DNA from: Thermoplasmata archaeon | Lineage (GTDB): Archaea > Thermoplasmatota > Thermoplasmata > Methanomassiliicoccales > Methanomethylophilaceae | NCBI GenBank assembly: GCA_015063135.1 | Contig: SUTA01000007.1 | Location: 1 to 64,000, forward strand | Length of the DNA stretch: 64,000 nucleotides | Direction of reading: 5' to 3' | In this document: positions 4,839 through 23,212 of the stretch, one piece after another | How positions within the stretch are numbered: position 1 is the first letter of the stretch | How the letters are laid out: the number at the start of each line of letters is the position of its first letter | Program-made: the position numbers and the translations under genes | The notes under the pieces: generated by a model | Seen by the model: only the letters and a program-made list of their open reading frames with translations | Told to the model about the DNA's origin: nothing | Database searches by the model: none

Positions 4839-4861
4839 GGCATCATCCTCCCCGATCCTGT

Positions 4862-5839: not shown

Positions 5840-7681
5840 TCAGGCGACCTCGTAGAGTGCCCAGGGGGTGTACAGAAGGCCTTCCGCTGTCGCTCCATTG
5901 GTGTCCCAGACTCCCTGGATGGAGTACAGCATGTATCCCTGATCAGCCTTCGTCTTGAGGACCAGGTCGTATGCATGGCCTTCGGCGGTGGTCGTGAGGA
6001 CTCCGGTATGGACGGTGTCTGCAGTGTATTCTTCTGCAGTTGTGGGAGCGGGGACCTGAACCTTATCAATGTATCCGGTGTACTGCCTGATGTTCGAGGT
6101 GTCATTGAACGCGTTCATAACCGTGAGGTTCTCGATGTTACCGTATGCCCTGACGTTGGTGTCGATGAGCCTGTAGTAGGTACCCTTCATGGACAGCGTC
6201 ATGCCTGCAGTCGCAGGGAAGTCCTCGAGGTCGAGGGCGATCCTCGCCTCTGCATCCTTGGTTCCGTCGTTCTTGAGGTAGTTGACCTCGAAGTCCGCTC
6301 CGGTCTCGAGGGCTGTGGTCGGAATGGCGATGGCGCTGATCCAGAGGTTCTCCTTCACATCGGTGATCTTCCAGGTTCCGTTGTTGACCATGCTGATCTT
6401 GTAGTTCGCGGTACTGATATCCGTTGTTTGTCCCGAATCCGTCACGAAGATCTTGTATGTGTACTCGGTTCCGATGTTCTCGGCCTTCTTGGCGATGCTG
6501 ATGATTCCGTAGCTTCCGGAATCGGAACCGATGACGGTGGATCCGGAGATGACCGCGACATTTGCGGTAGCAGGAGAGGTTTTCGCGATTTCTACTCCGG
6601 CTGCACCGGTAACAGTTGCAATCTGAGTCGCGGTGGCATCCTTGAACGTGATGGTGTAGTATGTCTTCGCCCAGTTGGCGTAGATGGTGATTGCATTAGA
6701 TGATGGAGTGGCTCCCTTCTGGGACGCGAGCATCAAGAGGTCCTCGATCTTGAAGGATTCGAGGGGGATGTCGTCGGTTCCCTCCGTGATGGTTCCATCG
6801 GAGTTCTTGATGGTCTTGTGATCTGCGGTTGCTGCAAATCCGGTGAGGGTGTATGTGTCGCACATCAGGGATGCGGACGCGGGTTTGGAAAGGTCGAAGA
6901 CCTCGTTCCTGACAAGGTTGTTGTAGGGATCGGGTGTAAGAGGGGTAATGTCAATGCGGTTGGAATCGATCTTCAGGATGCTTGCCGCGGCATCGACATC
7001 TGCAGGTGTGATTTCGACGGTTCCGAGTGCTTCATCGACGCCGTAGGCTTTGAGGATGATCGTGGTCTTTTTTCCATCTGTTAGATGTCCGGTTCCGTCG
7101 ATCCAGATCCTCTCATGGGCGGATATGGGTCCGATGATCGTAGCTGCTGTTGCGTCGGCATTCTTGATGCTGACGACAACGTCGTCAACACCAGTCATAT
7201 TGGTCATGTACTTGGTGTCGATGAGGATGGCCATGTCTGTGTAGGCGAATGCATACATCGCACTCGTGTCATTTTTACCCCATGTGGAGATTTGCTCGGT
7301 TGCAAGGGCCGATACTGTGATTGCTGATGATTCAGTTCCAGTTGTGTCTACAGTTGCCGTGATCGTACAGGATCCTGCAACGGCTCCGGTGATGGTGGCG
7401 TATGCAATACCCTGTGCGTTCGTGGTGGATTTGGTCGCGGAATCCGTTCCTGCGATAGTCACCGCAGTGTTGAGAGTACCAGTAACTGACCAAGTGACCT
7501 CGGTTCCTGCCGCTGGTTCTTCCAGAGTAAATGTGACCAGAGCTGTTCTTCCGATCTTGAGTTCGGTCGGGACGACGATCTGAGGACCTGCTGCATCCAC
7601 ATCGTTCTCTTCGGCGAGCACGGCCGTTCCCGCGAATACCATCGCGAGCACTGCCAGGATCGCCAATGCTTTCGTTTTCAT
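5840..7681 (-). CDS. Secreted Ig-like/S-layer-type surface protein, 613 aa
   Basis: Two ATGs lie 6 nt apart; the one at 7681 is chosen because AAGGAGAA sits 8 nt upstream, against only 2 nt for 7687. The protein opens with a textbook signal peptide (KALAILAVLAMVFAGTAVLAEE). The mature part is rich in Thr, Ala and Ser. It starts with a bacterial Ig-like domain (residues about 35-125, IVVPTELKIGRTALVTFTL), then beta-rich repeats, and a degenerate InlB-like segment around 300-350. I see no C-terminal membrane anchor, so it may be released or held by an S-layer. A hairpin terminator follows. It looks independently transcribed from the neighbouring adhesin genes. Confidence 0.75.
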   Translation of the reverse strand: MKTKALAILAVLAMVFAGTAVLAEENDVDAAGPQIVVPTELKIGRTALVTFTLEEPAAGTEVTWSVTGTLNTAVTIAGTDSATKSTTNAQGIAYATITGAVAGSCTITATVDTTGTESSAITVSALATEQISTWGKNDTSAMYAFAYTDMAILIDTKYMTNMTGVDDVVVSIKNADATAATIIGPISAHERIWIDGTGHLTDGKKTTIILKAYGVDEALGTVEITPADVDAAASILKIDSNRIDITPLTPDPYNNLVRNEVFDLSKPASASLMCDTYTLTGFAATADHKTIKNSDGTITEGTDDIPLESFKIEDLLMLASQKGATPSSNAITIYANWAKTYYTITFKDATATQIATVTGAAGVEIAKTSPATANVAVISGSTVIGSDSGSYGIISIAKKAENIGTEYTYKIFVTDSGQTTDISTANYKISMVNNGTWKITDVKENLWISAIAIPTTALETGADFEVNYLKNDGTKDAEARIALDLEDFPATAGMTLSMKGTYYRLIDTNVRAYGNIENLTVMNAFNDTSNIRQYTGYIDKVQVPAPTTAEEYTADTVHTGVLTTTAEGHAYDLVLKTKADQGYMLYSIQGVWDTNGATAEGLLYTPWALYEVA

Positions 7682-7781
7682 TTTCATTTCTCCTTTTCTT
7701 TCCGTCCGCTTCACCGTGAGACGGTACCGTAAACCGTTTCGATTTATTTGTCTAAAGGGTCCCCTGGACAATTGTCTTCAA

Positions 7782-7846: not shown

Positions 7847-10800
7847 TCATGTAGTGATGATGGTCACGTTGTTCCCCGAAACCATCGGTGTCGTGACCGT
7901 GTTGTCCTCCCCGCCCAGCTCGTATGTGTACTGGGCGTAGATGTTGTAGATCTCCCCGTTGGCGAGAACGGGATTCCAGCTCAGCCTCTCCTTCCCTGCG
8001 AAGGATTCTCCTTCGTAGTCCATATCGATGGCCCCGAACGCGCGGACCGCGGTGGTCCCGGAACCGAATGTGGCGTAGTACACTCCTTTTACGGATACAT
8101 CTCCACTGATGAGCCCTCCGGAGCTGGCCGCCTCGAGTACGACGAGAGCGCCCTGGTTGCCGTTGGTGAGTGCGGCGATCCTGAAATCGCCGATGCCGTC
8201 AAGGATGGTCGATACGTAGATGGATACCGTGATGTCATCCATCTGGCCGTCGCCATCGGAGTCGGTCCCCAGCGGGGTGAATCTGTACACACTGTCGCCG
8301 GATGCCTCCAGATAGGCGTTCTGCAGCACCAATTTGACGGAATAGCCCGATATCGGAGAAGCGATGATGAATCCCGTTTTGTCCGAGGCTATGCTGTCGG
8401 GGACGGTGAACGTTCCCTTGTCGTCGATGCTGTGGACCTCTCCGTCAAGGTATCCGATCGTGTCGATGGTTATGGTCTGCGAGATCACGTACCATGCGTA
8501 GAGCTCCAGGTCGTCCTCCGGCTGGAAGTAGGTCATCGCCTTGCATTTGAGCACCGCATGCTCCGCATCCGGGTCGTCCTGCGCCATGTCGTACCAGCCG
8601 ATGAACGTCCCGCCCTGGACCGCCTGTCCGAAGGGGACGGTTAGCACATCGGGCATCGTGATGGCCCTCCTGATGTCGGATGTTCCCGCATCATGGAAGA
8701 TCACGGTGATGTTCTTGGTGATGGTGAGGGTCATGGATACCTTGAGGGTGTCATCCACGACCGAGACGAGATACAGTGCATAGGTACCGGGTTCCGGTCC
8801 CACTCCGTCGGATGGGTCGAGGACGTAGTTGTCCGTCGCGGCGATGACATAGCCGTTCACCTTGACCTCGGTAATCATGGGTATGAACTTCGATCCGTCG
8901 TATTCATGGGTGGAGCTTTCGCTTGCGACGACGGCCTTCGGCATATGGAATGCAACCGTCGTCTGGTCTCCCTTGTATCCGGAGATCCTCTTCACACTGT
9001 CCTCCAGACCTATGAAGGCACCTCCGAGGGTGTACGCCGTGTAGTTCGAGGATGTTCCCGCGGACCAGGATCCCGCTCCGTAGGAGAAGTACCTCTTGGT
9101 CGCCGCTGTATCGTCTTCCAGAGTCACTGTCGGCGAAGCCGCCAATACCGGTGCGAAATCGTTCTCCACCAGGAATCCCTGCATGTACAGCGTCTTGCCT
9201 GTTGCAGGTGTTATGGTGGATGTGAGGTCCGTGACATCGCAGATCATCTGTCCGTACTCGCCTGACGTGGCGGTGTTCTGGGACAGGAAGTACGTAAGGA
9301 CATCCTTGTTCATGATCGGTGTGTACTCGGATCCTTTCAGCTCTCCGACGGGAGTTCCCTCCAGTTTCATGGAGATGGTTCCGCCCACGCCGCTGAAGGG
9401 CGCCGCTCCTATGGAGACGGTGGCATCGTTGAGGTCCACGGATGTTATTCCAGTATCCTTGAACGCGTTGGTGCCGATCGCTGTCGCGGATGTGAGGTCG
9501 ATCGCCCCTTCCATGACGCTTCCCTCGAAGGCCGATGCTCCGACATCCGTTATCTGGGAGAAATCGAATGACTTCAAGGCTCCGCATCCGTTGAATGCGC
9601 TCGCCCCTATCTGCGTACCGTTGAAGGAGATGTCGGAGATCGCATCGTTATCGTAGAACATGAATGCTCTCAAAGTCTCCACACCGCTGATAACTGCCCT
9701 CTGTGCTTCCGTCAATGTGTCGTATTGGGTGGTATGTTTAGTGACGAATTGGTCGTTCGCTGATGACGAGTATGTCTCGAGGACCGCACCATCCTGCTGT
9801 CCGGTGATGTAGACCGTCTTGGTCGCCGGCAGGTATCTGAACAGGACCTGTTCCGGAGCAGCGGATGCTCCGCATTTGTACCAGGCCGCATCGATGGTGT
9901 ATATGTTCCCTCTCGGGACGTCTCCTGATGTGACGAACAGGTAGATGTTTTCCTTCGGGTCATCTACACCGTTCTGATACCAATGATCGTCATCTGTGCG
10001 ATCGTCGAATGAATCGGATTGGATGCTTACAGTACCAGAGCTGCCCTCGAAGCTCACCGTATCCAATATCGTTATGTCGGTGAATGCGTTGGAACCGATC
10101 GCGGTGATATTTTCCGGGATGATCACCTGCGTGAGGGATGTCCCCTTGAACGCGTTATCCGGTATTACGGCTATACCCACGGGAATCTCTATGCTGGTGA
10201 GTCCCGTGTTCTCGAACGATCCGGCACCCAGACCGTAGGTTATTGACCTGGTGGTCCTGTCCGCCAGATCGCTGATGTCCGCGGATGTTATTGTCGAGCA
10301 GCCTTTGAATGCTTCCTCACCGACCGACAGGATCCCGGTCAGGTCGGCCGAGCCGGCGGTGGACGAATTCACCTTGGCGAGCGCTGTGCACCCGTCGAAG
10401 CAGTGATCCGGGATACTGGATATCTGGGATGAGAATGTCACGTTAGCCAGACTGGAGGATCCTTTGAAGAGGCCTTCCTTGAGCTGGGTGACGGTGGTCG
10501 GGATGTCGCAGGTCGTTATGGCCAGACCGGACAGACTGTAAGTTCCCAACGAGCTCAGAGAGGAGTCCAGGTTGAGAGTCTCGATCGAACTGCCGAGAGA
10601 GTACCAAGGGGTCCCGCCTTCGGTATAGTCCGAGAAATGACCTTCGCTCGAGACTTGGATTATGTTCAGGACAAAGTTCTCGGACGATCTGCTGAGGTAG
10701 AATTTGACACTGCCGTCATCGGAGCAGTCCTTCAGCGCCGCGGATGAGCGGGAGTAGGAATGTCCGGGTTGCAGAACCTCCTCTATATTGTCAGCGGTCA

Positions 10801-13800
10801 CATCCACATACTGATAACCGTTCTTGTAATAGGTTCCCATAGGTATGGGATCTGTGCCAGTGACCTGTAGGGCTATGTTCGATCCAAGGTTTATCGAAAG
10901 ACCGCTATTAGGACTCGTGGCAGTCAATGCCTTGGTTCCCAAGGAAATGGTCGCCTCGCTGTTGCTTTTGAGTTCGACATATACCAGGTCGGAACATTCC
11001 CCATAAGCCGACTCTCCTAGCGCGGTAGAGCCGTCGATCGTCAACGATTGAATCTTTGAGCCCTCGAATGCCGAGCTGCCAATGGACGTGATCCCAGCGG
11101 GTACCTCGAGAGAACGGATGCTTCCTCCCGTGCCGGCATGGGATGCTATCGTATCGCATACCGAGTCGAAGACAATCTCCTCCTTAGCATTGGGAACCGC
11201 TACCAGCATGCTCCTCGAGGTATTCGGATCCTTCTTGTAGAGGCATCCGCCGTATTCATAGTAGCTTCCTGTGCCATCTGATCCGATTTTCTCCAAAGAT
11301 TTGCATCCCGATACGGATGTGGATTGGAATCTCTCGACATCATTCGGGACGTAGAGATATGCCAGTGCGGCATTCGCGAAAGCATATCCGCCAACAGTCC
11401 TGAGCCCGGAGGGGAGAGTGATATTCACGATACCGTTCTGCTCGGGTGTATAGAAAGCATAGTCGCCGACCTGATAGATCCCTTCGCAGACCATGATGTA
11501 TTTCACGGTCTTGTTCACCAGATAATCGTACCAGGGAGCGAAGGTCCTCTGTTCCGGATCCGAAGCGACCGGATCGTAATTCGGAATGATGGTCTGCCGA
11601 CCCTTGGCAATATTATCCTCGACATCGCTGTAAGGGCTGTGAATTAACAGAGTATTTCCGATAACGAACCAATTGACAGATGAGTTGACTGCGCCTTGGG
11701 CGACAATATTGATACCATCCCTAAGGTACAGCTGTCCCTTTTCAAAATAGGTTCCGGGGACCGATCCAGTATATACATCCCTGTAAGTACTGCCTGAGAC
11801 TTGGGATACTTGTATTCCTTCAATATTAAAGACCAGAGCGTCGGATCTGATCTGATAACCTGTCCCTCCATCCCATAAGTAATAGCCATTGAAGTCCGAA
11901 TTATCGCCTACATAAACCAAAGGATTGGTCCAAGACGATACTATATTAGAACTTAGCTTCAAACAAGGGAAGTACAAAATCGGCGAATATGCCCTAGCCA
12001 AGTGCCAGCCTTGGGTTATATAGCCGTATTCACTGAAAGCGACAGTCGGAGTGGCATAATCACGGAAGAATTGTGTACTTGATTCCTTTTCCTCATCACC
12101 ATCGAGCATCTCAATGTATTTTTGGCTGGGCTGAAAAGTCAAAGGGTAGCCCGAGGCATTATAATATAGACCATCCGCACTCTTGGTACGGCCTTCCAAC
12201 TCCAAATATCTTACATTCTGATAGTATCTATGCTCATTGACAGCGTCAGAATTTAGCATACACAGACCTACGTTTGAGTCGCGGCCGTAAAAGACATCCT
12301 TGTTAAGGTATGAATTCTTTGGAACGTGTATCAAGGCGCACCTCAGTATATCGAACTGTCCGGTTGAGCTTAAACTCCACGCCACCTTGCCTGTGACCGA
12401 AGGACCGTTCGCTGGTTCAGGCAGGATGACGTTGCGTGTATTCACGACCCCGGCGTTTAGATTCGATGCTGAGTCTGAATCTGCCAGCGTATATGAGGTG
12501 ACTTGCGAGATGGAGAGCGTATAGCATATGACAACCGTATCATAATTTGTTATCTGACCGCTGATTTCAGCGAAGCCTACCCTGTGCATATATGCACCGC
12601 TGGGATCCGTGAGCGGTACGTCATATATCTTGCACTTAGTGGCACCGTCCGATTTAACCACCGCCTGGCGGTAGTAGAGCCATCCAGACTTCAGGACCGA
12701 ATCGCTCTGGTTCAGATCCAGGGAGCCTGCCCTGTACTGCTTCTTTCCCTCGACGTCGGTACTGGGATCCACATTTGACCAATCAGACTTACCCATTTCC
12801 CAGGTCATCCATTTCGTACTCGTTGTGTTGTTCCAAGACTCCGACGGGAGTGAGGTCTCTATCGTCGAGCACGACTCCCCGCTCCTCCCTGCTATCTGGA
12901 GGAGTATTAGGCTCTTGCACCCAGCGAATTCCTCGCCTTCGGTCAGATCTATGGCAGGCATATAGACAGAGCTCATGTTGGTGCAGTCCTTGAATGCCGC
13001 TCTGCCTATGGTCTCCACCGAGCTCGGGATGTAGACGGATGTGAGGGATGCACATCCTTCGAAGGCCTGGTCACCGATGCGCTTCACATTGTCCGAGATA
13101 TATACATCTGAGATCACCGAATTATAGAACGCTCTATCATGGATGCATCTCACACAGAAAGGAATGGGCATCATCAAAGGTACATCTAAGTCAGCTCCGG
13201 TCTCATTCCAGATATGTCTATGGAAATTTCCGCGGCTCGATTCATATCCCTGATTATTCATGGGGCTGAACAGGAGTTCCCCGTTCTCGTATGTCACTTC
13301 ATTTTCATCGGTCCAGTCAGTGAACAGACATCCGTTTATCACGGTGTATGTCTGGTTCTTGGGATCGACGTCTAAGGACTCCAGCGAGGTCATTCCGAAG
13401 AATGCGTCCTCTCCGATGGAGGCGACGGTCTTCGGCAGGTATATGCTCGTGATGCCAGTGCATCCGTAGAATGCCTCGTCCCCGATGCTCGTGAGAGAGC
13501 TCGAGAGCTGGACGGAGGCCAAATGGGTGGCGCCCTTGAAGGCGTTCGCCGCGATACCGGTCGCCTCCTGGGCCATCGTGTAGGATGACGCATAGCCCGT
13601 GCCCGACTTGTAGGCGGACGGGAAGGCTACGAGCTTTGTCGGCATGAAGGCGCTCTGCTCATAGAGGACCCCGTTGTCGTCCAGCAGTTTCGCATTGGCG
13701 GCGGAGACGCTGAATCTCTCCAAGGCCGTGCAGCCTTCGAACGAGCCTGCATCTACTTCTTCGATCGATTGCGAGATATCCATCTGGGTCATGCCTGGGA

Positions 13801-14311
13801 TGTTGTAGAATGCATGCTGTGTGATGGATGTGATCGAGCCTCCGTCATCGACCATTCTGACGGCTTTTATGACATTCCTGTAAGCATTCCAAGGAGCTTT
13901 CGTCCCGGAAGCAGCGTCATCCGCGACATAGCTCGGCATCACCCCTGTGGCTGTGGTCGTGATAACCAGATCCGTCGTGGATCCTGCCTCTAGTTCAGAT
14001 TCGTTCCAAGTGAATGTCGCGACCGTCGGATCCGTCGCTTCGGACATGCCCGTGACTACGAAACAAGAGACGACGAAGACCATCGCAACTGCAATCGCCG
14101 CATACATCATGGATCTGATCTGACCACTGGATGAACCGATGCCTCTCGCTAGCTTATTCGCGCGACTCGCGCCCAATGTTCCCGTAAGAGCGATGGGAGC
14201 CGAAGATCTCTTCGTGATCCCGTATGAACGGGTATGCGGATCCTTCGGACCGCCCGTTCCCCGAGATGCGGCAGCATCCGTCTGCTGCTCTTTTCTCCTA
14301 TAAATTTTCAT
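7847..14311 (-). CDS. Giant BspA-like leucine-rich repeat adhesin, 2,154 aa
   Basis: The start at 14311 is set by GGAGAGG 5 nt upstream. The N-terminus has about 60 basic cytosolic residues and then one hydrophobic segment (MMYAAIAVAMVFVVSCFVVTG), a signal anchor. The exterior is dominated by BspA-type LRR_5 repeats (pattern AF-GC-L-SV-LP-SV-IG), seen in at least three blocks: residues about 130-480, 950-1180 and 1250-1600. A segment of about 430 residues between the first two blocks has no repeats and is AT-richer. The last 450 residues hold Ig-like and InlB-like parts (FHDAGTSD...GGTFIGWYD). No C-terminal anchor is seen. BspA-type proteins bind host or bacterial surfaces in other microbes; that role is inferred here. 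Confidence 0.85.
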   Translation of the reverse strand: MKIYRRKEQQTDAAASRGTGGPKDPHTRSYGITKRSSAPIALTGTLGASRANKLARGIGSSSGQIRSMMYAAIAVAMVFVVSCFVVTGMSEATDPTVATFTWNESELEAGSTTDLVITTTATGVMPSYVADDAASGTKAPWNAYRNVIKAVRMVDDGGSITSITQHAFYNIPGMTQMDISQSIEEVDAGSFEGCTALERFSVSAANAKLLDDNGVLYEQSAFMPTKLVAFPSAYKSGTGYASSYTMAQEATGIAANAFKGATHLASVQLSSSLTSIGDEAFYGCTGITSIYLPKTVASIGEDAFFGMTSLESLDVDPKNQTYTVINGCLFTDWTDENEVTYENGELLFSPMNNQGYESSRGNFHRHIWNETGADLDVPLMMPIPFCVRCIHDRAFYNSVISDVYISDNVKRIGDQAFEGCASLTSVYIPSSVETIGRAAFKDCTNMSSVYMPAIDLTEGEEFAGCKSLILLQIAGRSGESCSTIETSLPSESWNNTTSTKWMTWEMGKSDWSNVDPSTDVEGKKQYRAGSLDLNQSDSVLKSGWLYYRQAVVKSDGATKCKIYDVPLTDPSGAYMHRVGFAEISGQITNYDTVVICYTLSISQVTSYTLADSDSASNLNAGVVNTRNVILPEPANGPSVTGKVAWSLSSTGQFDILRCALIHVPKNSYLNKDVFYGRDSNVGLCMLNSDAVNEHRYYQNVRYLELEGRTKSADGLYYNASGYPLTFQPSQKYIEMLDGDEEKESSTQFFRDYATPTVAFSEYGYITQGWHLARAYSPILYFPCLKLSSNIVSSWTNPLVYVGDNSDFNGYYLWDGGTGYQIRSDALVFNIEGIQVSQVSGSTYRDVYTGSVPGTYFEKGQLYLRDGINIVAQGAVNSSVNWFVIGNTLLIHSPYSDVEDNIAKGRQTIIPNYDPVASDPEQRTFAPWYDYLVNKTVKYIMVCEGIYQVGDYAFYTPEQNGIVNITLPSGLRTVGGYAFANAALAYLYVPNDVERFQSTSVSGCKSLEKIGSDGTGSYYEYGGCLYKKDPNTSRSMLVAVPNAKEEIVFDSVCDTIASHAGTGGSIRSLEVPAGITSIGSSAFEGSKIQSLTIDGSTALGESAYGECSDLVYVELKSNSEATISLGTKALTATSPNSGLSINLGSNIALQVTGTDPIPMGTYYKNGYQYVDVTADNIEEVLQPGHSYSRSSAALKDCSDDGSVKFYLSRSSENFVLNIIQVSSEGHFSDYTEGGTPWYSLGSSIETLNLDSSLSSLGTYSLSGLAITTCDIPTTVTQLKEGLFKGSSSLANVTFSSQISSIPDHCFDGCTALAKVNSSTAGSADLTGILSVGEEAFKGCSTITSADISDLADRTTRSITYGLGAGSFENTGLTSIEIPVGIAVIPDNAFKGTSLTQVIIPENITAIGSNAFTDITILDTVSFEGSSGTVSIQSDSFDDRTDDDHWYQNGVDDPKENIYLFVTSGDVPRGNIYTIDAAWYKCGASAAPEQVLFRYLPATKTVYITGQQDGAVLETYSSSANDQFVTKHTTQYDTLTEAQRAVISGVETLRAFMFYDNDAISDISFNGTQIGASAFNGCGALKSFDFSQITDVGASAFEGSVMEGAIDLTSATAIGTNAFKDTGITSVDLNDATVSIGAAPFSGVGGTISMKLEGTPVGELKGSEYTPIMNKDVLTYFLSQNTATSGEYGQMICDVTDLTSTITPATGKTLYMQGFLVENDFAPVLAASPTVTLEDDTAATKRYFSYGAGSWSAGTSSNYTAYTLGGAFIGLEDSVKRISGYKGDQTTVAFHMPKAVVASESSTHEYDGSKFIPMITEVKVNGYVIAATDNYVLDPSDGVGPEPGTYALYLVSVVDDTLKVSMTLTITKNITVIFHDAGTSDIRRAITMPDVLTVPFGQAVQGGTFIGWYDMAQDDPDAEHAVLKCKAMTYFQPEDDLELYAWYVISQTITIDTIGYLDGEVHSIDDKGTFTVPDSIASDKTGFIIASPISGYSVKLVLQNAYLEASGDSVYRFTPLGTDSDGDGQMDDITVSIYVSTILDGIGDFRIAALTNGNQGALVVLEAASSGGLISGDVSVKGVYYATFGSGTTAVRAFGAIDMDYEGESFAGKERLSWNPVLANGEIYNIYAQYTYELGGEDNTVTTPMVSGNNVTIITT

Positions 14312-14395
14312 ATCTACCTCTCCTTGAGGGACGTTCATTGACTACGTCTGCTGTACATGAAGAAGCATTTGTCATACTTAAATGGTGCTAATACC

Positions 14396-14411
14396 TTAGC
14401 ATTAATGCTAA
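14396..14411. promoter_or_regulatory. Perfect 16-bp palindrome, candidate operator
   Basis: TTAGCATTAATGCTAA is its own reverse complement. A further TGCTAAT copy occurs at 14386-14392, exactly 20 bp from the same heptamer at 14406-14412. The palindrome abuts a TATA-like TAATATATAT on the right and lies behind a TATA-like TTTAAG on the left, in the shared 116-bp gap between the giant adhesin gene and a divergent winged-helix gene. It is a strong candidate binding site for that regulator. Confidence 0.6.
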
Positions 14412-14427
14412 TATATATGCGAAATAG

Positions 14428-14847
14428 ATGATAGGGTGCGAGACTGCTCATTACCTCATGAAGAAACAGTCGGAGAATCTCGCGAACAAGAGTTATACAT
14501 CATCCATTCTCAAAGAGATCCAACGCAACGTCGAGTCCAAGATCTCCGACATGTACGGAAGCATAGCGGCGCACGAGACGGTCGACAGATACATCGAGGA
14601 GATGGAAAGGAAGGGAGTACTGGAGATCACCGTGAAGAGAGGTGATACGCGCCACCTCGCTCAGTACTGCCATCTCACAAAGAAGGGATATCTCATGACC
14701 CTTCTGATGGAGGTGCTCGAATCCGCAGAGGACAACGGGCTTGATATGGATGTCGACGAAGCCATCGAGATACTTGAGAAACTTGTTTCCAGAACCGCTT
14801 ATGCTGCCGGTCTCGAGAAGTCTGACGAGATCAAGAACCTTTTTTGA
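14428..14847 (+). CDS. Winged-helix transcriptional regulator, 139 aa
   Basis: Divergent from the giant adhesin gene. The central part shows a winged-helix layout: a helix over SSILKEIQRNVESKISDMYGS, a recognition-helix region ETVDRYIEEMERKGVLEI and a wing ITVKRGDTRHLAQYCHLTKKG, then a helical C-terminal half (LLMEVLESAEDNGLDMDVDEAIEILEKLV) that could dimerise. No strong ribosome site precedes ATG 14428; ATG 14458 (MKKQSENL) is a possible later start given the TATA-like box at 14409-14418. It probably controls its own gene and the adhesin through the palindrome between them; this is inference from position. Confidence 0.72.
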   Translation: MIGCETAHYLMKKQSENLANKSYTSSILKEIQRNVESKISDMYGSIAAHETVDRYIEEMERKGVLEITVKRGDTRHLAQYCHLTKKGYLMTLLMEVLESAEDNGLDMDVDEAIEILEKLVSRTAYAAGLEKSDEIKNLF

Positions 14848-15279
14848 GTTATTGTCTACGATAGAGGGCATCACGGAATATCCTCCAATTCTACCATTTT
14901 CGTTCACTGAACCGACCTTTTAAGAGACCGATGTCCAGTCAGGGTCGTTCCGGATTCCATATTCGGACTCGGTCGAAATGGAATCGACAGATGAATCCGA
15001 TTGAACTCAATATGGTACCTGGCTGCGGTGAAACGTGAGGACTACGCTCAGTGCGACCTACATGCTCCATTCATCACCGAGGGACCGTGTCATTCGAGAC
15101 GTCCAACCATTGCACCACCTGGTTCCGACCTCTCTTGATGATTCTTACGGAATCGCAGATTGGGTTTACTCGACCCATCTCTGTGAGCGTTATTCGCAGG
15201 ATGATCGTTCTTCATCCTTCCCATGCACCGAATTCAGCGTGGTACATATATGGCAGGATACGACCCAACGACGATCGGC
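14848..15279. other. Intergenic stretch, no gene recognised
   Basis: About 430 bases between convergent genes. Short open frames exist on both strands but none has a ribosome site, promoter or recognisable product. A loose inverted repeat CCATATT / AATATGG (about 14958-15016) is the only structure noted. It could be decayed coding sequence. Confidence 0.4.
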
Positions 15280-15708
15280 TCATTCCTGACCATTGTGCTT
15301 CAGCCTGATCTTCTGCTCGGATTCGTCGATGGTGATGACGAATTTATCGAAGAAACCCTGTCTGCCCAGCAGAGTGGGGGCGAAGAATTCCGTTTCTGAG
15401 AAAAGGACGCGGATGGGAATCTCATAGACGTAATGCTCATGACCCTTGGAGATCTCCACATGGATCCTGGTGACTACGGACTCGACGGGACCGGATACGC
15501 CGAATGTCTTCACCCTTTTACCTGTGAGGTCGAGACCTAGTTTTGTCGCATACCTGTAATCCATAGCGCTCATATCAGCGCCGCTATCGATCAGAGCATA
15601 CTGCTCCAATTCTTTGTCGTTATGGAAGAATCTGACGAGGACATACGGACGCTTACTGGCGGTCCCGTTAGGACTGGATGAATCAAGGTATCTGAAATTC
15701 ATCGTCAT
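15280..15708 (-). CDS. Retropepsin-like aspartyl protease domain protein, 142 aa
   Basis: The protein has the single-domain retropepsin signature: a catalytic ALIDSGADMSAMD around residue 38 (D-S-G-A-D in place of the viral DTG), a flap-like middle, and the closing VLLG/TLLGRQGFFDKFVITID strand where the second conserved Gly pairs. One domain of this size would work as a homodimer. It starts 4 nt after the DUF5678 gene, so the two are an operon. This pairing occurs in several archaea and the substrate is unknown to me; I infer a cytosolic role because no signal peptide is visible. Confidence 0.8.
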   Translation of the reverse strand: MTMNFRYLDSSSPNGTASKRPYVLVRFFHNDKELEQYALIDSGADMSAMDYRYATKLGLDLTGKRVKTFGVSGPVESVVTRIHVEISKGHEHYVYEIPIRVLFSETEFFAPTLLGRQGFFDKFVITIDESEQKIRLKHNGQE

Positions 15709-15712
15709 TCTA

Positions 15713-15910
15713 TCACAGAAGCATGCATTCCGCAGGAAGTACCTGGGTCACAAAAGGAACGTATTTGCTGCCGCAAGCTTTGACGGTTGCATCATAGACC
15801 TCATCGAAAGACTTGGAATGTGCTACGATAACACCTTCGCACATGCCGACGAACTCGCCCTCGTAGGGGGTCTTGTCGAGCTTCATGAATGCATCGCCTG
15901 ACTTGCTCAT
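15713..15910 (-). CDS. DUF5678-like small protein, 65 aa
   Basis: Short protein with the layout YEGEFVGMCEGVIVAHSKSFDEVYDATVKAC...YVPFVTQV, which fits DUF5678 (a G-x-V-V-x-H/S strand, a helix, then a closing strand). It sits directly upstream of the retropepsin-like gene with a 4-nt gap, so they are translated from one message. It might be a substrate, inhibitor or partner of the protease; nothing in the sequence decides this. An AT-rich promoter region precedes it (15911-15950). Confidence 0.7.
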   Translation of the reverse strand: MSKSGDAFMKLDKTPYEGEFVGMCEGVIVAHSKSFDEVYDATVKACGSKYVPFVTQVLPAECMLL

Positions 15911-15959
15911 ATTGATACGATATCATTAGTCTTACATAAAGATGGTAGTTGTGGGCTAG

Positions 15960-16170
15960 AAAATATTCGAAGATGCCTATGGCCGGTCGGCGGGCGCTGG
16001 GCCACGGCCCAACGCGCCACGCCGCCACGGCCCCTGTCGCCCGCACCCTCCGCTCTCTGAGGTTCGCTTCGGGTGCGCGCCGTACGCTCACGCGTCCGTC
16101 GGGCGACATAAGATGTTTGCAAACCGTTTGGAAAGGGTTTGTCGGAGAAGCCTCCGAGGGCCGTGGAATG
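15960..16170. other. GC-rich, inverted-repeat-dense non-coding stretch
   Basis: A sharp GC-rich island inside AT-richer surroundings, between the DUF5678 gene and the end of the Rep gene. It carries a hairpin over 15994-16015 (GCG.TGGGCC / GGCCCA.CGC) and a nested pair: GTCGCCCG (16036-16043) with CGGGCGAC (16100-16107), enclosing GCACCC (16043-16048) with GGGTGC (16071-16076). Such cruciforms suit a replication origin, an attachment region or a structured RNA. Frames that are open across it do not look like protein. Confidence 0.45.
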
Positions 16171-17565
16171 TCAGGCTATCTTCCTTGCAGCGACGTGGCG
16201 CTGATACTCCGCCATCGCATCCTTGGGCCTGGAGGATGCTATGTTGTCCATGACCTCCTTGTCGGAAACGATCATGGCCACATCCGGCGTCAGATCTCCC
16301 ATCGTGCACCCATCGATGCGGAGACTGTCCTTCAGTCCGGGGAGGACCTCTTTCACGTAGGGAGCATCACGGGCGAATGCCCTGACCTTGTTCTCGAAGA
16401 TGTGCGAAGCCGCTTCTCCGCATTGGTCGCATATGCCCGAGTAGACGTTCAGTGTACCTCCGCATTGCGTGCAGGTCCTGGTGACCCTGTAGGATTCCCT
16501 GTCAACGGTCTTGATCATGTTGTTCGCCAACACTCCGAAGTAATTGTCGCTGATCTGCGAGAACTGCGGTTCCATCGCATAGCCCAGCCAGTCGAAGTTC
16601 CCAATCTCCCCTACCATCCTGCCCTTACCGAGGACCTCGTCGGCCTGATCCTCCTCGGTGTACCTGAACATCCTCTTCTCCGATCCATTCTGTCCGGTAT
16701 CGTCGTTGGAGTTCAGGCCAGGGAGATAGTAGTTCAGGATCTTCGAAGTGTAATCGTCGCTCGTGGGATTCCTCTCGTACAGCCCGATGCCTTCGTGTGT
16801 GGTAAGATAGGCGAAGGTGAGCCTTATGGATTGCAGCTCATCCTTGGAATGCACCTTCTTGATCACCCATCCGGGATGGGTATCCAGGAACGCCTTCGTG
16901 TCCAGGAATCCAATGAGCACTCCATGGAAATGGGGGCCGTTCTCCCAGGTACAGTCCTTCATCCTCCAGGGATGGAAGACGAGTCTACCTCCCAGACATC
17001 CCACTTTGCAGAGATCCTGCTGGAGCCTCCTCCTGAACCTGTTGAACCACACATGAGATTGCATGATCCATCTCATTTGGTCCTGGGGAGGGGAGATTAT
17101 CCAATGCCCGACGTTCCCGTGTTCGATGCCCTGCTTCTCGCACAGCAGACGATATTCCACGTATCTCATCTCGATGCGTGTTCCCGTTCTGAGACAGGAA
17201 TCGTTCAGGCATACGGGGCATTTAGGAGACCAGCAATGGTTGTTCTTCCCTCTGAGATAATGGAATCTGGAGTTTGAGCAGGAGACGAAGAGACGGCCCT
17301 TCTCTCCCGTGGAGCCTTTGATCCTCACCGGACCGCAGCGGAGCCTCTTGGGACGCTGGAGGTCGTGGCCGGGAGCCACCCATGTCAGCGGTTCGGGGAT
17401 ATCGCAGATGGGGACATCATCCGGATTGTAGTATGCATCCTCGAACGGGAACATCTTCACATACTGGATGACCGGATGCTCGTTCCTCTCCGCAATCCTC
17501 AGCTCCAGCTCGTCCGGATCCATCTCCTCGGTGTATCCAAGATCCAACAGTTCCTGAAGATCCAT
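16171..17565 (-). CDS. HUH-family rolling-circle replication initiator (Rep), 464 aa
   Basis: ATG 17565 is one base past the previous stop. The order of motifs fits an archaeal plasmid/virus Rep: motif 1 HWIISPP (154-160), motif 2 GPHFHGVL with the metal-binding H-F-H at 212-214, and motif 3 FAYLTTHEGI with the candidate catalytic Tyr 253. A Cys/His-rich part (Cys96, 111, 116, 119, 124) precedes motif 1, and a zinc ribbon CTQCGG...CDQCG (Cys365, 368, 379, 382) lies in the C-terminal third. Rep would nick one strand at an origin, stay bound through the Tyr and prime rolling-circle replication. It implies an integrated plasmid or virus. The family assignment rests on motifs, not on a search. 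Confidence 0.75.
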   Translation of the reverse strand: MDLQELLDLGYTEEMDPDELELRIAERNEHPVIQYVKMFPFEDAYYNPDDVPICDIPEPLTWVAPGHDLQRPKRLRCGPVRIKGSTGEKGRLFVSCSNSRFHYLRGKNNHCWSPKCPVCLNDSCLRTGTRIEMRYVEYRLLCEKQGIEHGNVGHWIISPPQDQMRWIMQSHVWFNRFRRRLQQDLCKVGCLGGRLVFHPWRMKDCTWENGPHFHGVLIGFLDTKAFLDTHPGWVIKKVHSKDELQSIRLTFAYLTTHEGIGLYERNPTSDDYTSKILNYYLPGLNSNDDTGQNGSEKRMFRYTEEDQADEVLGKGRMVGEIGNFDWLGYAMEPQFSQISDNYFGVLANNMIKTVDRESYRVTRTCTQCGGTLNVYSGICDQCGEAASHIFENKVRAFARDAPYVKEVLPGLKDSLRIDGCTMGDLTPDVAMIVSDKEVMDNIASSRPKDAMAEYQRHVAARKIA

Positions 17566-17566
17566 G

Positions 17567-17920
17567 TCAGGGCTCCTTCCCGGAATCCGCAAGACGTTTG
17601 CTTGGCCAGTCGGTGGGACCGAACACCTCCTCGAATTGCTTCCTGTCCGAGTCGTCGAGACGACCCTGACGGTCGAGTTCCAAGGCCGTCTCCTTCTCTT
17701 TGACCAGTAATCCGTAGTACTCTTCGAACTCGTCCTCGTCGTAAAGGTCCCTGAGGGCATCCAGGCCGTAGAGTTCGATGATCACGCTGTCGCGATGTTC
17801 GCTGTTACAGTTGTCGAAGACCAGAGGGGTGTAATCCTCGCAGTGTCCGCAGAGCTTTCCTTTGCTGTCCGGACATGGATAGTAGGCGCAGGTTAGGCAG
17901 CACTTCTTCTCAAGGATCAT
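17567..17920 (-). CDS. Cys-rich N-terminus hypothetical protein, 117 aa, Rep operon
   Basis: The N-terminus has a Cys cluster (KKCCLTCAYYPCPDSKGKLCGHC, Cys at about 7, 8, 11, 16, 23, 26) that could bind zinc; the rest is acidic and helical. It overlaps the upstream gene by 11 bp and its stop is 1 nt before the Rep start, so the three are co-translated. I do not recognise the family. A DNA-binding or Rep-accessory role fits the context but is inference. Confidence 0.65.
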   Translation of the reverse strand: MILEKKCCLTCAYYPCPDSKGKLCGHCEDYTPLVFDNCNSEHRDSVIIELYGLDALRDLYDEDEFEEYYGLLVKEKETALELDRQGRLDDSDRKQFEEVFGPTDWPSKRLADSGKEP

Positions 17921-18311
17921 TGAACCTGCACCCCAGCGCTCTCATCTTCTCTCTGATCTCCTCTATGTCCATCTCCTCCTTGGGGAATTCCATATCCTCG
18001 ATGGATTCTCCGAGCTCGGTGAAGGATTTGCCGAGATCCTTGAACAGCTGTGCATCCACAGGAAGGTACGGGTGTATGTCACCTACGATGAATGTCATCT
18101 TAGGCTTCGGCACCTTGTAGTCCTGCTTCTTCTTGTCGTAGTCTGCAACCATGTTCAGTCCCACGAAGATGTTCCCGTGCCTGAACTTGGTTACAGGTAT
18201 TCTCAACGGAGGCCTGGATACCGGTTGAGGTACTCCGAGCGCCTCCTGCGCTTCCTTTATGATTGTATCGTTAACCACGTAATCACTGTCCTGCCTTTCG
18301 GCGATATTCAC
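17910..18311 (-). CDS. Small element protein, 133 aa, paralogue of 18583-18906 product
   Basis: The middle (KFRHGNIFVGLNMVADYDKK, then YKVPKPK, a hydrophobic strand, YLPVDAQLFKDLG) can be laid against the 107-aa protein encoded 270 bp upstream: both have F--GNI, a V--Y-K turn, Y--P, V-G, a P-D turn, L-K and G. That suggests an internal duplication within the element. It ends with a charged helical tail. The family is unknown to me. Position ahead of Rep makes a single-strand-binding or copy-control role possible, but nothing shows it. Confidence 0.6.
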   Translation of the reverse strand: MNIAERQDSDYVVNDTIIKEAQEALGVPQPVSRPPLRIPVTKFRHGNIFVGLNMVADYDKKKQDYKVPKPKMTFIVGDIHPYLPVDAQLFKDLGKSFTELGESIEDMEFPKEEMDIEEIREKMRALGCRFNDP

Positions 18312-18582
18312 CTTGGGCGCATCCTAGATGCGGGAAACCCGGTGACGGAGCGTCCTCTACGGCCTATCGGCCGTTGCCCTTCTTTCTCATGCCCTGCTGC
18401 CTTTGCATTGTGTAGAATTGATGGATCGCGGCGCCTCTTTCACTCGTGGGGTCGTGGTGTTGTTATTCTATGTGTTCCCCCACGGTACGCCGTGTTGTCC
18501 TGGATGATATTGATCTTGTGGCAACAGCGCTTGACTTGATTCTCTGCTTATTTCTTGATACCTCTATCGACTCTATCTCGAT
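18312..18582. other. Non-coding stretch with two compact hairpins, candidate origin
   Basis: About 270 bases between two genes of the Rep block without a credible ORF. Two perfect short hairpins are present: ACGGCC-TATC-GGCCGT (18359-18374) and CACGG-TACG-CCGTG (18481-18494). Rolling-circle elements place the Rep nick in a stem-loop near rep, so this is a candidate double-strand origin. It might equally hold terminators. Confidence 0.4.
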
Positions 18583-18906
18583 TCAGACCTTGGTTGTTGT
18601 GCCAGCTGTCCAATTCTGACATTCGGATTCGAAATCGGTACCGACCTGCTGGACGAAGGCTCCCCATTCCTTAAGGAGACCGGGGTCGAGAGGCACTCTG
18701 ACGTACTTCCCATCGACGAGGGTCACCAGTCTTAAGAGAGGCTCCTCGTAGCATCCCGTCTCCTTGTTGTAGGGGACCACCGACCTGAAGAACATTCTGA
18801 TATTCCCCTTGTCGAAGGCGGCTATGTTCCTGACCTTGGTCTTCCTGTTCCTCTTTGTGTTCCTTGCATTGTCGGATCTCTGATTATCAACTGTTGTTGT
18901 ATCCAT
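18583..18906 (-). CDS. Small basic element protein, 107 aa
   Basis: ATG 18906 is chosen because GGAGGG lies 5-6 nt upstream, although the frame is open to 19098. The N-terminal 25 residues are Asn/Arg/Lys-rich and disordered-looking (NARNTKRNRKTK), which suits nucleic-acid binding. The body (AAFDKGNIRMFFRSVVPYNK...YEEPLLRLVTLVDG...VPLDPGLLKEWG) matches the layout of the 133-aa neighbour. The family is unknown. It is the first gene of the minus-strand Rep block. Confidence 0.6.
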   Translation of the reverse strand: MDTTTVDNQRSDNARNTKRNRKTKVRNIAAFDKGNIRMFFRSVVPYNKETGCYEEPLLRLVTLVDGKYVRVPLDPGLLKEWGAFVQQVGTDFESECQNWTAGTTTKV

Positions 18907-19308
18907 CGTATCCCTCCGTTTTGCTTGAGGTGGAGGTCGTACGGATGGAAGCCAAGACAATTCGGGCCCACAACTGTTTAGAGTAGCATCTGAGCTGTTC
19001 CCCACAACAATTGTATCGCCAGAAATTGGCCCCCTCATAGAAAAAATTACGAAGATCTGGCTATTGTCGAAGTGGACTCGGTAGGGCCCACCACTCATTT
19101 ATCATCCATCTCTTCGGAAGCGGTCACGCATCCCATCACCTGATGGACTTTCATGGCCATCGCCCCGGTTACCGCAGGTTCGGGCGGAAGGCTGATCGCG
19201 GTCCGAGCCTCCGGAAACACGGTGCGATGCGCCCATTCCGGGCGCTTTTCCACTTTCGGGCACCTCCCCCTGTGAGCCTTATGTACCCCCTCGGCGAACC
19301 ATCCGCCC
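18907..19308. other. Intergenic stretch at the right border of the Rep block
   Basis: About 400 bases. The left half is AT-richer and should hold the promoter of the 18906 gene. From about 19140 the composition switches to the GC-rich style of the rest of the window, so a border of the integrated block probably lies near 19.1 kb. I could not find direct repeats matching the left side. TCCACTTTCGGGCACC (19249-19264) recurs upstream of radA. Confidence 0.4.
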
Positions 19309-21197: not shown

Positions 21198-22849
21198 ATT
21201 CCAAGGCCCTCATCATCATCGCGATCATCGCGGTCGGAGCCGTTGCCATAGCGGGGATAGCCCTCGCCATGGGCGGAGGGGAGGGCCCCGATCCGCCCGG
21301 GCCGAGCCCAGGGCCCGAGCCGGAGCCGCCGTTCCCGGTGGACCCCGTGCCGGAGGGCTATGTCCTGACGGACGGGAAGCTGTCCAGGGAGGATGGGAGA
21401 TCCACCGCTTGGCACATCTTCGATCAGCTGCATGCCTACATGGCGGAGCCCACGTATGGTAGGCCGACGGTGTACATGGGCTATGACGAAGGCGGGGCAT
21501 ACGTCGAGCTGGGGCCCGGCAGGTACACCATCAGGGAGGGCGGCTCGGAGTTCCCGGTGACGGTCGAGGGCGAGATCCACCGCGAGATCGGGTGGAAATG
21601 GTCTATGGGCGGCACCATCCACGATGTGTCCGTGAGTTTCGACATCGACGCATTGGAGTACTTGGCGGAGCACACCGCCAACAAGCAGAGGAACGACGGC
21701 TATCACGAGCACTACGACTTCAGGTTCCTGCCATACGGCATCGTGCTCAGCGATGTCACCTCATCCGTAGCATCCCAGCTGTCATCGGAATACTCCCGCA
21801 TAGGCGGTTCCGTGTCGGACCGCCAGGGTTTCGCCGATTTCGTCGCTGCATTCGTCCAGCTGAACATCGTGTACCCGCCCACGGTCACCGGCCATTCCGG
21901 GGAGTTCGACTACTATGTATGGGGCGCCGAGGAGTACTGGTGCACACCCATGGAGACGCTCTACCACATGATCGGGGACTGCGACGACAACGCGGCGCTG
22001 ATCTGCGCCCTGTACCTGGAGCTGGGGTACGAGACCGCCATCGCGGGCAAGCCTGGCCATGCCTTCTCCGGCGTCCATTTGGATGTGTTCGAGGAGATCC
22101 CGGACGAGGAGCTGAAGGCTGTCGGGTTCGTGCAAGGCGACCTCTGTCTCGCTCCGGCAATAGAATCTATAGTCGGCAGCGATCTGGAGTTCGGCGACAC
22201 CCCGTTCTACGCGGTGGACAGCCTCCAGTTCAAGAAGGGCGTCAGCCATCCCGTGGGGTATATAAGCGGCGGAACGAAGTGGATCAGCACCCCTGATAAG
22301 AAGCCCGTGTCGACGATGTCTAACGGCTATGCCGGGTTCTACGAGCCCTTGGATGAGCGATCGCTTCTTCGGATGGTTGCTCTTGGGGAACCAGTCCGGG
22401 AACCAATCGTCGTCGAACGTCTGCGCATCGGAGAATGTTATCTCCTTCCCAACGTTCATCACCATCAGGTCCCTTCCAGCGACAGTTTTGATCCCGGTCC
22501 TCTCCTGTGTCATCCTGGCCTCGTTCTCGGGCCCCTTCATGATGATGACTATGCCCAGGTGGATGAAGACGGCCACCTCGGGCCTGACCCTCTCCAGGAA
22601 CATCATGGCGTCATCGGTGCACATGTGGAACTTGATCCTCTCGCCGTAGGGCGTGGTGATCGGGAGGATCACTGCCCTGCATCCGATGTACTGGTCGGCT
22701 ATCTCGTCGGAGTACGCGGTGTCGCTGACGTAGGCGACCTTCCCGTCAGGGGTGTCGAACACGAACCCCACATTGGTGGGGTCGCTGTGGTCCGCTCTCT
22801 TGATCTCGACCTTGAGCCCTCCGATGTCGAGGGTCTCGCCCGGTATTAG
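21194..22849 (+). CDS. Membrane-anchored transglutaminase-like protein with run-on C-terminus
   Basis: The start is set by the ATGA overlap. It has an N-terminal membrane segment (ALIIIAIIAVGAVAIAGIALAM), a proline-rich spacer (PPGPSPGPEPEPPFP) and a domain like that of the upstream gene, with MIGDCDDNAALICALYLELGY (catalytic-type Cys near residue 263) and GHAFSGVHLD (His). The recognisable domain ends near residue 385 (GFYEPLDE, about 22356). The remaining 165 codons are antisense to the MBL-fold gene and look like non-protein. A one-base shift there would give TGA at 22354-22356, so the natural stop has probably been lost through a single-base deletion. Confidence 0.72.
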   Translation: MNSKALIIIAIIAVGAVAIAGIALAMGGGEGPDPPGPSPGPEPEPPFPVDPVPEGYVLTDGKLSREDGRSTAWHIFDQLHAYMAEPTYGRPTVYMGYDEGGAYVELGPGRYTIREGGSEFPVTVEGEIHREIGWKWSMGGTIHDVSVSFDIDALEYLAEHTANKQRNDGYHEHYDFRFLPYGIVLSDVTSSVASQLSSEYSRIGGSVSDRQGFADFVAAFVQLNIVYPPTVTGHSGEFDYYVWGAEEYWCTPMETLYHMIGDCDDNAALICALYLELGYETAIAGKPGHAFSGVHLDVFEEIPDEELKAVGFVQGDLCLAPAIESIVGSDLEFGDTPFYAVDSLQFKKGVSHPVGYISGGTKWISTPDKKPVSTMSNGYAGFYEPLDERSLLRMVALGEPVREPIVVERLRIGECYLLPNVHHHQVPSSDSFDPGPLLCHPGLVLGPLHDDDYAQVDEDGHLGPDPLQEHHGVIGAHVELDPLAVGRGDREDHCPASDVLVGYLVGVRGVADVGDLPVRGVEHEPHIGGVAVVRSLDLDLEPSDVEGLARY

Positions 22850-23212
22850 CAGCCCGTGCCTCTCCGCTACTCTGAGGTGGTAGGGTGACATGCAGGGGCC
22901 GAGCCCGTCCCTGCCCTCCATCACGGTGGGGGAGCCGTAGACCTCCCCGCGCCTCACCCATCCGCCGTGGGTCATGCCCTCGATGGCGGACGGGGAATCG
23001 GAGTAGTGGTCGGGGTGGCAGTGGGACACGATGACGCAGTCGGTGTCCCCGGGGTCGGCATGGATGCGGTGCATTTGGGTCATAGCCCCTGGGCCGGGGT
23101 CCATGTGGATGCGCCCGCCGTCGTGGTCTATGAGCATCCCGCCGGTGCAGCGCACCTGGGATATCGTGGTGTGGCGCCCGCCGCCGGTCCCCAGGAAGGT
23201 TATCCGGAACAT
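21782..23212 (-). CDS. Metallo-beta-lactamase-fold hydrolase with run-on C-terminus
   Basis: The N-terminal 275 residues are a clear MBL-fold enzyme: FLGTGGGRHT at residue 5, IHMDPGPGAM, and the metal site SHCHPDHYSD (about residue 63), then KRADHSDPTNVGFVF and AYVSDTAYSDE for the later ligands. It would hydrolyse a phosphodiester or thioester-type bond; the substrate is unknown. The domain ends near DDDWFPDWF (about 22380). Beyond that the frame reads antisense through the transglutaminase gene. Stops are available at 22322 or 22341 in the other two frames. It starts inside the 3' end of the HAD-like gene. Confidence 0.72.
   Translation of the reverse strand: MFRITFLGTGGGRHTTISQVRCTGGMLIDHDGGRIHMDPGPGAMTQMHRIHADPGDTDCVIVSHCHPDHYSDSPSAIEGMTHGGWVRRGEVYGSPTVMEGRDGLGPCMSPYHLRVAERHGLLIPGETLDIGGLKVEIKRADHSDPTNVGFVFDTPDGKVAYVSDTAYSDEIADQYIGCRAVILPITTPYGERIKFHMCTDDAMMFLERVRPEVAVFIHLGIVIIMKGPENEARMTQERTGIKTVAGRDLMVMNVGKEITFSDAQTFDDDWFPDWFPKSNHPKKRSLIQGLVEPGIAVRHRRHGLLIRGADPLRSAAYIPHGMADALLELEAVHRVERGVAELQIAADYRFYCRSETEVALHEPDSLQLLVRDLLEHIQMDAGEGMARLARDGGLVPQLQVQGADQRRVVVAVPDHVVERLHGCAPVLLGAPYIVVELPGMAGDRGRVHDVQLDECSDEIGETLAVRHGTAYAGVFR

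Follow-up and report, generated by a model that had tools for sequence, protein, structure and literature searches.

Among the cryptic integrated elements described from Thaumarchaeota, NitAQ6f-E2 carries an SNJ1-like replication protein (Rep), and transfer RNA (tRNA) genes are the commonest target across the elements of that study (39 of 68, a count for the whole set), according to the excerpted text (PMC6563490). For the order Methanomassiliicoccales, proviruses with VP4-like fusogens are in print (excerpts of PMC10919331), as is one provirus population each from Methanomassiliicoccus and Methanomethylophilaceae UBA71 (excerpts of PMC8727293), and archaeal inoviruses are recorded in Methanosarcinaceae and Aenigmarchaeota (excerpts of PMC6813254). 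Here we analyse a window of 64,000 nucleotides, positions 1 to 64,000 of contig SUTA01000007.1 in the Methanomethylophilaceae assembly GCA_015063135.1, in which a block of about 3 kb carries a Rep of the HUH type. We find that this block, a replication module, forms the right-hand end of a larger tRNA-integrated element, which measures 17.5 kb in one relative (genome G081) and 43.3 kb in another (G078), and that it very probably serves an integrative plasmid-like element residing at a tRNA gene. Actinomycete integrative elements of the pSAM2 type unite an integrase, a tRNA site and a rolling-circle Rep in one element; the likeness lies in these three parts, the window element being archaeal and having no transfer gene that we noticed.

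Like the window element, NitAQ6f-E2 is integrated and encodes a rolling-circle endonuclease homologous to SNJ1 RepA, and a figure legend on selected Thaumarchaeota elements names restriction-modification components; it differs in coming from another phylum and, compared by its excerpted description only, in having there no structured element LE, palindrome M31, U107 and U133 proteins or cargo bay such as we set out below (PMC6563490). SNJ1 (Simuloviridae) RepA and its haloarchaeal plasmid counterparts share with the window Rep a zinc cluster and the H..SPP, H.W, HUH and Y..SH motifs in register, but SNJ1 is by annotation a virus with capsid genes, whereas none of seven scanned proteins of the G081 element is a virion gene product. 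The pleolipovirus-like proviruses reside in the same host order and may be virus-type elements sharing the Rep family and the LE core; they differ in that the window has no match to the membrane and ATPase block and a Rep unlike that of HRPV-1 (excerpts of PMC10919331). The preliminary description of this DNA had raised the possibility of a new plasmid or virus family; novelty holds at the sequence level, while the kind of element is known already from NitAQ6f-E2 (excerpts of PMC6563490). Literature titles and abstract openings yielded no description of the element. Within the reach of our searches, three things are new: the family of elements in this order, the cargo system it carries and the two-part LE.

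The genome of the window (G000) is that of a gut methanogen; the window contig is C31, its first base being window base 1, and the comparison set comprised 147 genomes of the order, 31 of them in the genus. Four minus-strand genes occupy window 16171-18906, encoding U107 (18583-18906), U133 (17910-18311), a Cys-rich 117-aa protein (17567-17920) and Rep (16171-17565; 464 aa, best start at 17565). As U133 overlaps the Cys-rich gene and Rep begins directly after it, the four genes probably form one operon. The first reading of the block, as a Rep with a Cys-rich small protein and two paralogous small proteins on the minus strand, was accurate: U107 and U133 (the pair P0003 and P0004) match each other in direct BLASTP at E 2e-6 (26% over 66 aa) and unite in one alignment of 13 sequences (A5), and in some relatives (L061-L064) both match one single protein. 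Library scans gave U107 and U133 chance-level matches only (best E 0.14 in Pfam, 0.024 in PHROGs and 0.34 in PDB) and the Cys-rich protein no meaningful family match; homologs of the latter, 44-91% identical, stand at the equivalent position in L032, L033, L055 and L056. Judged by sequence pattern, a PC4-like single-strand-binding fold is a speculative possibility for U107 and U133.

Rep homologs occur in 29 of the 147 genomes, 21 of these 29 among the 31 of the genus, and several genomes carry many Rep matches, a number of the copies being broken or partial. Across 24 homologs (alignment A1), H154..S158-P159, HPW (198-200), P211-H212, H214, Y253 and H257 are invariant, with W155 and F213 nearly so, and two Cys clusters (C77, C96, C111, C116 and C119; C365 and C368) are likewise invariant, in line with the two zinc-binding regions proposed earlier. 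The conserved set thus comprises five N-terminal cysteines, H..SP, HPW, PHxH, Y..H and a second CxxC. The HUH pair and the catalytic-type tyrosine (H212, H214, Y253 and H257) are present in all 24, in an order that matches alignment A6, made of SNJ1 RepA and three haloarchaeal plasmid records. Aligned with A6 in hhalign, Rep scored a probability of 98.3 with E 1.9e-14 (a value that refers to one single comparison) over 208 columns, with motifs in register; against the control A7, three sequences comprising the pleolipovirus HRPV-1 Rep and two relatives, the probability was 0.6, no match. Judged by motif and profile similarity, Rep is predicted to be an SNJ1 RepA-like HUH Rep, in agreement with the rolling-circle Rep and motifs first noted.

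Weighing against this assignment, Rep alone has no meaningful match in Pfam, PHROGs, NCBIfam or PDB, and the best Pfam E among the 24 members is 0.0022, mostly to zinc-ribbon-like models. The profile search proposed earlier has a double outcome, in that the libraries name no family and the SNJ1 RepA profile matches at 98.3. Rep has no BLAST-level match in phage and plasmid records, and none in IMG/VR as a single sequence or as an alignment. It has a single tyrosine with a histidine at +4 (Y253..H257), and so does not show the two catalytic tyrosines that characterize IS91/Helitron enzymes.

The ends of the element identify it as tRNA-integrated. Its right boundary is exact at window 19092, the end of an attR core CGGTAGGGCCCACC (19079-19092, plus strand) that represents the last 14 bp of tRNA-Met(CAT) and recurs unchanged at both att sites of G078 (attL and attR) as well as in the intact tRNA-Met of G077; the right end as a whole (18996-19095) is 76-77% identical in L055 copy B, L058 and L076. 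The module (window 15981-19092) is found in G078 at 95.95% identity over 3,112 bp, between different flanks. There it belongs to a 43.3-kb insertion, present in G078 only, between attL (tRNA end 388,574) and attR (431,873). The near relative G077 has an intact tRNA-Met that leads directly into the sequence bordering the G078 copy on the right, the two genomes being 99.1% identical over 2,112 bp left of and through the tRNA and 98.7% over 6,145 bp to the right, and the search for empty sites suggested earlier was thereby answered for the G078 copy. In G081, the tRNA-Met attL and the attR core lie 17.5 kb apart. A repeat from the tRNA 3' end marks both ends in G078 and G081, and in the window attR only. 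A tyrosine integrase adjoins attL in G081 (PF00589 1.8e-12) and in G078, and integrase homologs, many of them distant, occur in 28 of the 31 genus genomes at E <=0.001.

The initial view of a compact 3-kb element does not hold, since the block makes up the replication end of a larger integrase-type element, 17.5-43.3 kb long in relatives. Its right edge is fixed at 19092, and the left edge at 15.96 kb did not hold: the conserved palindrome M31 and a pair of cargo genes (15280-15910) lie beyond it, and the element continues past M31 by about 15 kb in G081 and about 40 kb in G078. We thus rejected a compact element ending at 15.96 kb, as M31, cargo and shared ends continue leftward. That the block is integrated and mobile was confirmed, Rep homologs being present in 29 of the 147 genomes and not at one site throughout. 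For the att core, the empty site, the integrase at attL, the horizontal spread, the Rep family and the linkage of LE to Rep, the case comes from comparison of sequences between genomes.

These ends also bear on an alternative in which the block is a standalone 3-4 kb rolling-circle transposon of the IS91/Helitron type, bounded by M31 and the right end and moved by Rep. Insertion by IS91/Helitron elements is the work of a Rep-type enzyme and involves no tRNA att core, whereas here the right end is such a core, a precise 43.3-kb empty site exists, an integrase adjoins attL in G081 and G078, and homology continues past M31 in several copies; the single catalytic-type tyrosine with its histidine at +4 points the same way. 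Three observations speak for the transposon: M31 forms a hairpin with a short conserved tail after it, two of the 24 Rep members weakly touch the IS91 zinc-binding model (best E 0.16), and the RepA group has been linked to IS91 transposases, as the title of Wang et al. 2018, cited elsewhere, indicates. Taken together, we consider it very improbable.

An integrative plasmid-like element must also account for the window copy itself. The tRNA-Met of G000 is only 81% like the query, and the genome has no site within 3 mismatches of the tRNA-Met end except one tRNA-Val. Contig C1 ends with this tRNA-Val(GAC), whose tRNA end CGGTCGGGCCCACC is followed by an element left end; counting the tRNA end, 167 bp here are 94.6% identical to G078, and the contig breaks off about 260 bp further on. 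tRNA-Val(GAC) is thus the most likely insertion site in G000, and the simplest model is a single element that runs from tRNA-Val in C1, across an assembly gap, to window 19092. Because the contig starts at window base 1, the left end is placed indirectly; the copy probably runs off the contig start, leaving at least 19 kb of element in the window contig.

This reconstruction falls short of proof, because the tRNA-Val core differs from the window attR core by one base and the flanks show no homology, the right flank having no match to the tRNA-Val and tRNA-Met loci. Several further points count against an integrative element. The window showed neither an integrase nor an attL, and no circular form was seen, contig C37 being without terminal overlap, for which reason C37 was also rejected as an assembled circle. 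Integrase matches in G000 are listed on C37 and C7, none on the window contig, which starts at window base 1. Compared with the genus, the right flank has only weak, scattered matches; its comparison with the tRNA-Val and tRNA-Met loci disclosed no empty site for the window copy.

The module has moved between hosts. Rep is 98% identical between the window and G078 and the module DNA 96%, whereas for a chromosomal proxy protein (window 22402-23212) identity falls to 65% between these two genomes and lies at 61-67% for the nine other genomes asked. The yardstick of host divergence, one protein and one tRNA, is small, yet the gap is wide. Because the module is so much closer than the proxy protein, the sequences argue for recent horizontal transfer between species that are far apart. 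G000 and G078 have an almost identical module and extreme left end, and beyond these tblastx detected little similarity to the G078 stretches. Such recent transfer between species, with surface-protein and candidate defence cargo, offers a view of how hard-to-grow gut methanogens trade DNA.

A distant relative of Rep occurs together with a P-loop ATPase of the 204-aa type at 18 loci (17 if the identical L069 and L070 are counted once), most of which also encode membrane and surface proteins, arranged as in L070. We call these virus-type, in distinction to the plasmid-type copies that resemble the window; both types occur in G082. Their ATPases are weakly Zot-like in 5 of 12 cases (best E 0.0091), with PDB matches of E 0.19 and weaker. 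L070 1034-8709 is one such virus-like block, of which G082 holds several copies. L069 and L070 (G080:C16 and G082:C3) are 100% identical over 12,000 bases in genomes classed as different species, to be explained by very recent transfer, by a shared contig or by mis-binning.

Such a related Rep branch, adjoining a conserved block of surface protein, small membrane protein and P-loop ATPase, raises the question of a provirus, in which the window element or its relatives would encode virions and the large surface proteins would be spikes. The Zot-like scores and the reported pleolipovirus-like proviruses of Methanomassiliicoccales (excerpts of PMC10919331) fit this idea. However, the ATPase and membrane block is listed neither for the window nor for the plasmid-type loci, the seven scanned proteins of the 17.5-kb G081 element include no virion protein, and the window Rep is unlike that of HRPV-1 (hhalign 0.6). 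We give a provirus a small chance, if slightly better than that of the transposon.

The replication module also contains LE (15981-16130, plus strand), a two-part structured element and candidate origin lying just behind Rep, with a 5' arm (about 15981-16034) and a core (about 16035-16109). Its 150 bp fold at -44.4 kcal/mol (z -3.31; none of 200 shuffles as good), and the consensus of 12 aligned copies holds 32 pairs, 9 with changes on both sides. Covariation reaches 0.200; none of 500 shuffled alignments (0.092 +/- 0.014) equals this, and sliding the structure gives 0.03-0.09. The test favours the structure, which was derived from the same alignment, and further pair types are not outstanding (213 of 500 shuffles as high). 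Fold and covariation in relatives together substantiate the hairpin-rich gap originally seen at the left of the block. A model search returned 15 hits in 7 of the 31 genus genomes, absence elsewhere being less than firm because 108 first-look candidates were scored per genome. All 15 lie near a Rep match, 14 within 440 bp and the 15th 1.8 kb from a Rep fragment. LE stands behind Rep in plasmid-type copies and before it in virus-type copies, with the relative direction unchanged. An Rfam scan of 15-20 kb, a search of IMG/VR for the exact core pattern and a search of plasmid and phage records for LE gave no match.

The two parts of LE differ in how they follow Rep, as judged from 11 of the 12 copies (G087:C17, with no full Rep, was left out). 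The 5' arm splits plasmid-type from virus-type copies (99/99), as Rep does, whereas the 75-bp core fails to. Of the five virus-type cores, two share 91% identity with that of the window, their Reps being 34 and 36% identical, two more share 85 and 86% and the fifth 69%; among plasmid-type cores the identity is 92-99% for the three nearest and 80% and 76% where Rep is 62 and 51%. A tree constrained to unite the plasmid-type cores is worse by 5.8-7.0 log units (p-AU 0.0458 and 0.0497 over 75 columns), a borderline result of a grouping test chosen after the matrix had been seen.

One possible interpretation, which we put forward tentatively, is that LE is a two-part origin, with a Rep-type-specific 5' arm and a shared, exchangeable core of 75 bp, folded as a three-way junction and read by something other than Rep. 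On the same two-part view, and no less speculatively, the reader of the core might be host priming at an archaeal single-strand origin, or the core might be a signal for packaging into virus-type particles. Exchangeable single-strand origins occur in bacterial rolling-circle plasmids. We know of neither a shared single-strand origin nor a packaging signal in this order, although we made no literature search aimed at single-strand origins or satellites there. The shared core makes it directly testable whether rolling-circle plasmids of archaea swap single-strand origins or ride on viruses.

Packaging would make the element a self-replicating satellite, carried by its virus-like relatives by way of the shared core. 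Suggestive of this are the 85-91% identity of the window core to four of five virus-type cores despite Reps at 34-36%, the mere 80 and 76% reached by two plasmid-type copies with nearer Reps (62 and 51%), and the presence of both element types in G082. Yet three nearer plasmid-type cores reach 92-99% and the fifth virus-type core 69%, the core test is borderline (p-AU 0.0458 and 0.0497, post hoc, 75 columns), a host-recognised single-strand origin would explain the sharing equally well, and elements of 17-43 kb are large for a satellite. Such a satellite thus has only a very slim chance, comparable to that of the transposon.

For an integrative plasmid-like element, a coherent cycle can be proposed. 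A tyrosine integrase would integrate the circle at the 3' end of a tRNA gene (tRNA-Met for the relatives, most likely tRNA-Val(GAC) for G000) and would later excise it. In the circular form, Rep would nick LE just behind its own gene and so begin rolling-circle replication, with U107, U133 and the Cys-rich protein perhaps acting as accessory replication or regulatory proteins. The remainder of the circle would be a swappable cargo bay, partly expressed from M31 as a putative promoter. To our knowledge, few mobile elements have been described in Methanomassiliicoccales, many of which are gut methanogens, and we know of no genetic tools there; a delimited replication module, a putative origin, an integrase family and tRNA sites are parts for a shuttle vector.

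Cargo differs between copies, and the rest of the element is a swappable bay for surface-protein and defence-like genes. In the window, four large minus-strand open reading frames (ORFs; 2328-4865, 4862-5749, 5840-7771 and 7847-14338) have the repeat and membrane look of surface proteins by eye and are read as cargo; 7847-14338 alone encodes a 2,163-aa protein that appears leucine-rich-repeat-like, with the three other surface-type ORFs adjoining. The same part of the G078 element holds large surface-type, ABC-transporter-like and other ORFs, judged by eye from ORF starts. Pfam scans of cargo covered a protease and DUF5678 pair, seven G081 element proteins and two window ORFs. The pair consists of a retropepsin-like aspartyl protease (15280-15708, minus strand; Asp_protease_2 2.3e-5, above cut-off), a candidate defence gene by its PADLOC match (PDC-M52B 2.1e-6), and its partner DUF5678 protein (15713-15910, minus strand; PF18929 2.3e-5, above cut-off). 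It sits between LE and M31 in the window, and the two genes also adjoin in L055, L076, L078, L080 and L083. In G082:C1 the pair follows tRNA-Met directly, and in G077 and G078 it follows a remnant element, so this cargo may have been either deposited at the site or acquired there. G081 instead carries a type III-like restriction enzyme (ResIII 6.2e-9; REase_III 6.5e-13; PADLOC PDC-S61 1.1e-87 for its C-terminal part), a DUF1016/YhcG nuclease (PDC-S02 1.3e-78), a DUF2971 protein (PDC-S31 9.8e-33) and a UvrD helicase whose best PADLOC model is GajB (4.1e-41), models that may also catch ordinary helicases.

M31 (about 15222-15263, minus strand) is a conserved palindrome with a TATA-like putative promoter that points away from Rep. 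At up to 2 mismatches it has 13 sites in 7 of the 147 genomes, against 1 match for a reversed-pattern control; its left half has diverged in the window. A promoter with a palindromic operator fits better than a transposon end, because ORFs start 121-156 nt behind M31 at 5 of the 13 sites (ORFs of 630, 811 or 451 aa at 129-156 nt in three, an 89-aa ORF at 121-122 nt in two). M31 had first looked like a Helitron-type terminus, a candidate rejected as the downstream ORFs suit a promoter better. Other sites count against a promoter: L129 has no ORF of at least 50 aa within 500 nt, the window and L112 have 135-136-aa ORFs alone, beginning 348-354 nt away, in L147 a 397-aa ORF lies at 260 nt and at one L146 site a 364-aa ORF at 316 nt, and L057, L145 and the other L146 site have short ORFs (up to 121 aa) from 14-74 nt. 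Additionally, no convincing gene follows M31 in the window, a point that also tells against the proposed cycle. L146 also has a 105-aa ORF at 269 nt behind M31. A lone M31 occurs at L112 6410-6441 (G000:C19; 97% over 31 bp), on a contig listed without a Rep or LE match.

Near the contig start, three plus-strand ORFs (122-721, 887-1189 and 1117-1488) are probable backbone genes on the strength of tblastx similarity of up to 68% to L137 9368-10695 (within the left portion of the G078 element), up to 59% to G000:C37 and, among the matches listed, up to 61% to G082:C6. The G000:C37 relatives of the genes at window 874-1485 lie about 1.3 kb from an integrase. A 139-aa protein (14428-14847, plus strand) is a possible winged-helix regulator (HTH_45 E 0.0084, below the curated cut-off). 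Between U133 and U107, a conserved non-coding stretch (18407-18501) is 76-78% identical in three other genomes, G082 (L056), G085 (L034/L065) and G115 (L032/L057), and also lies inside the 96% block of G078. The block, earlier called AT-richer, has 50-61% GC and is so only relative to its right flank (56-68% over 19.0-26.0 kb, mostly >58%), because the left side at 10-16 kb has 44-58%.

Decayed copies were also observed. In G077 and G078, tRNA-Met and the protease-DUF5678 pair flank a remnant element B made of U133, U107 and the right end (L055 11627-12544, L106 near 14262-16890, and L076); an integrase C-terminal fragment is located there as well. Another decayed element, at G078:C1 851186-854660, retains a Rep fragment, an LE-like site and an M31-like site.

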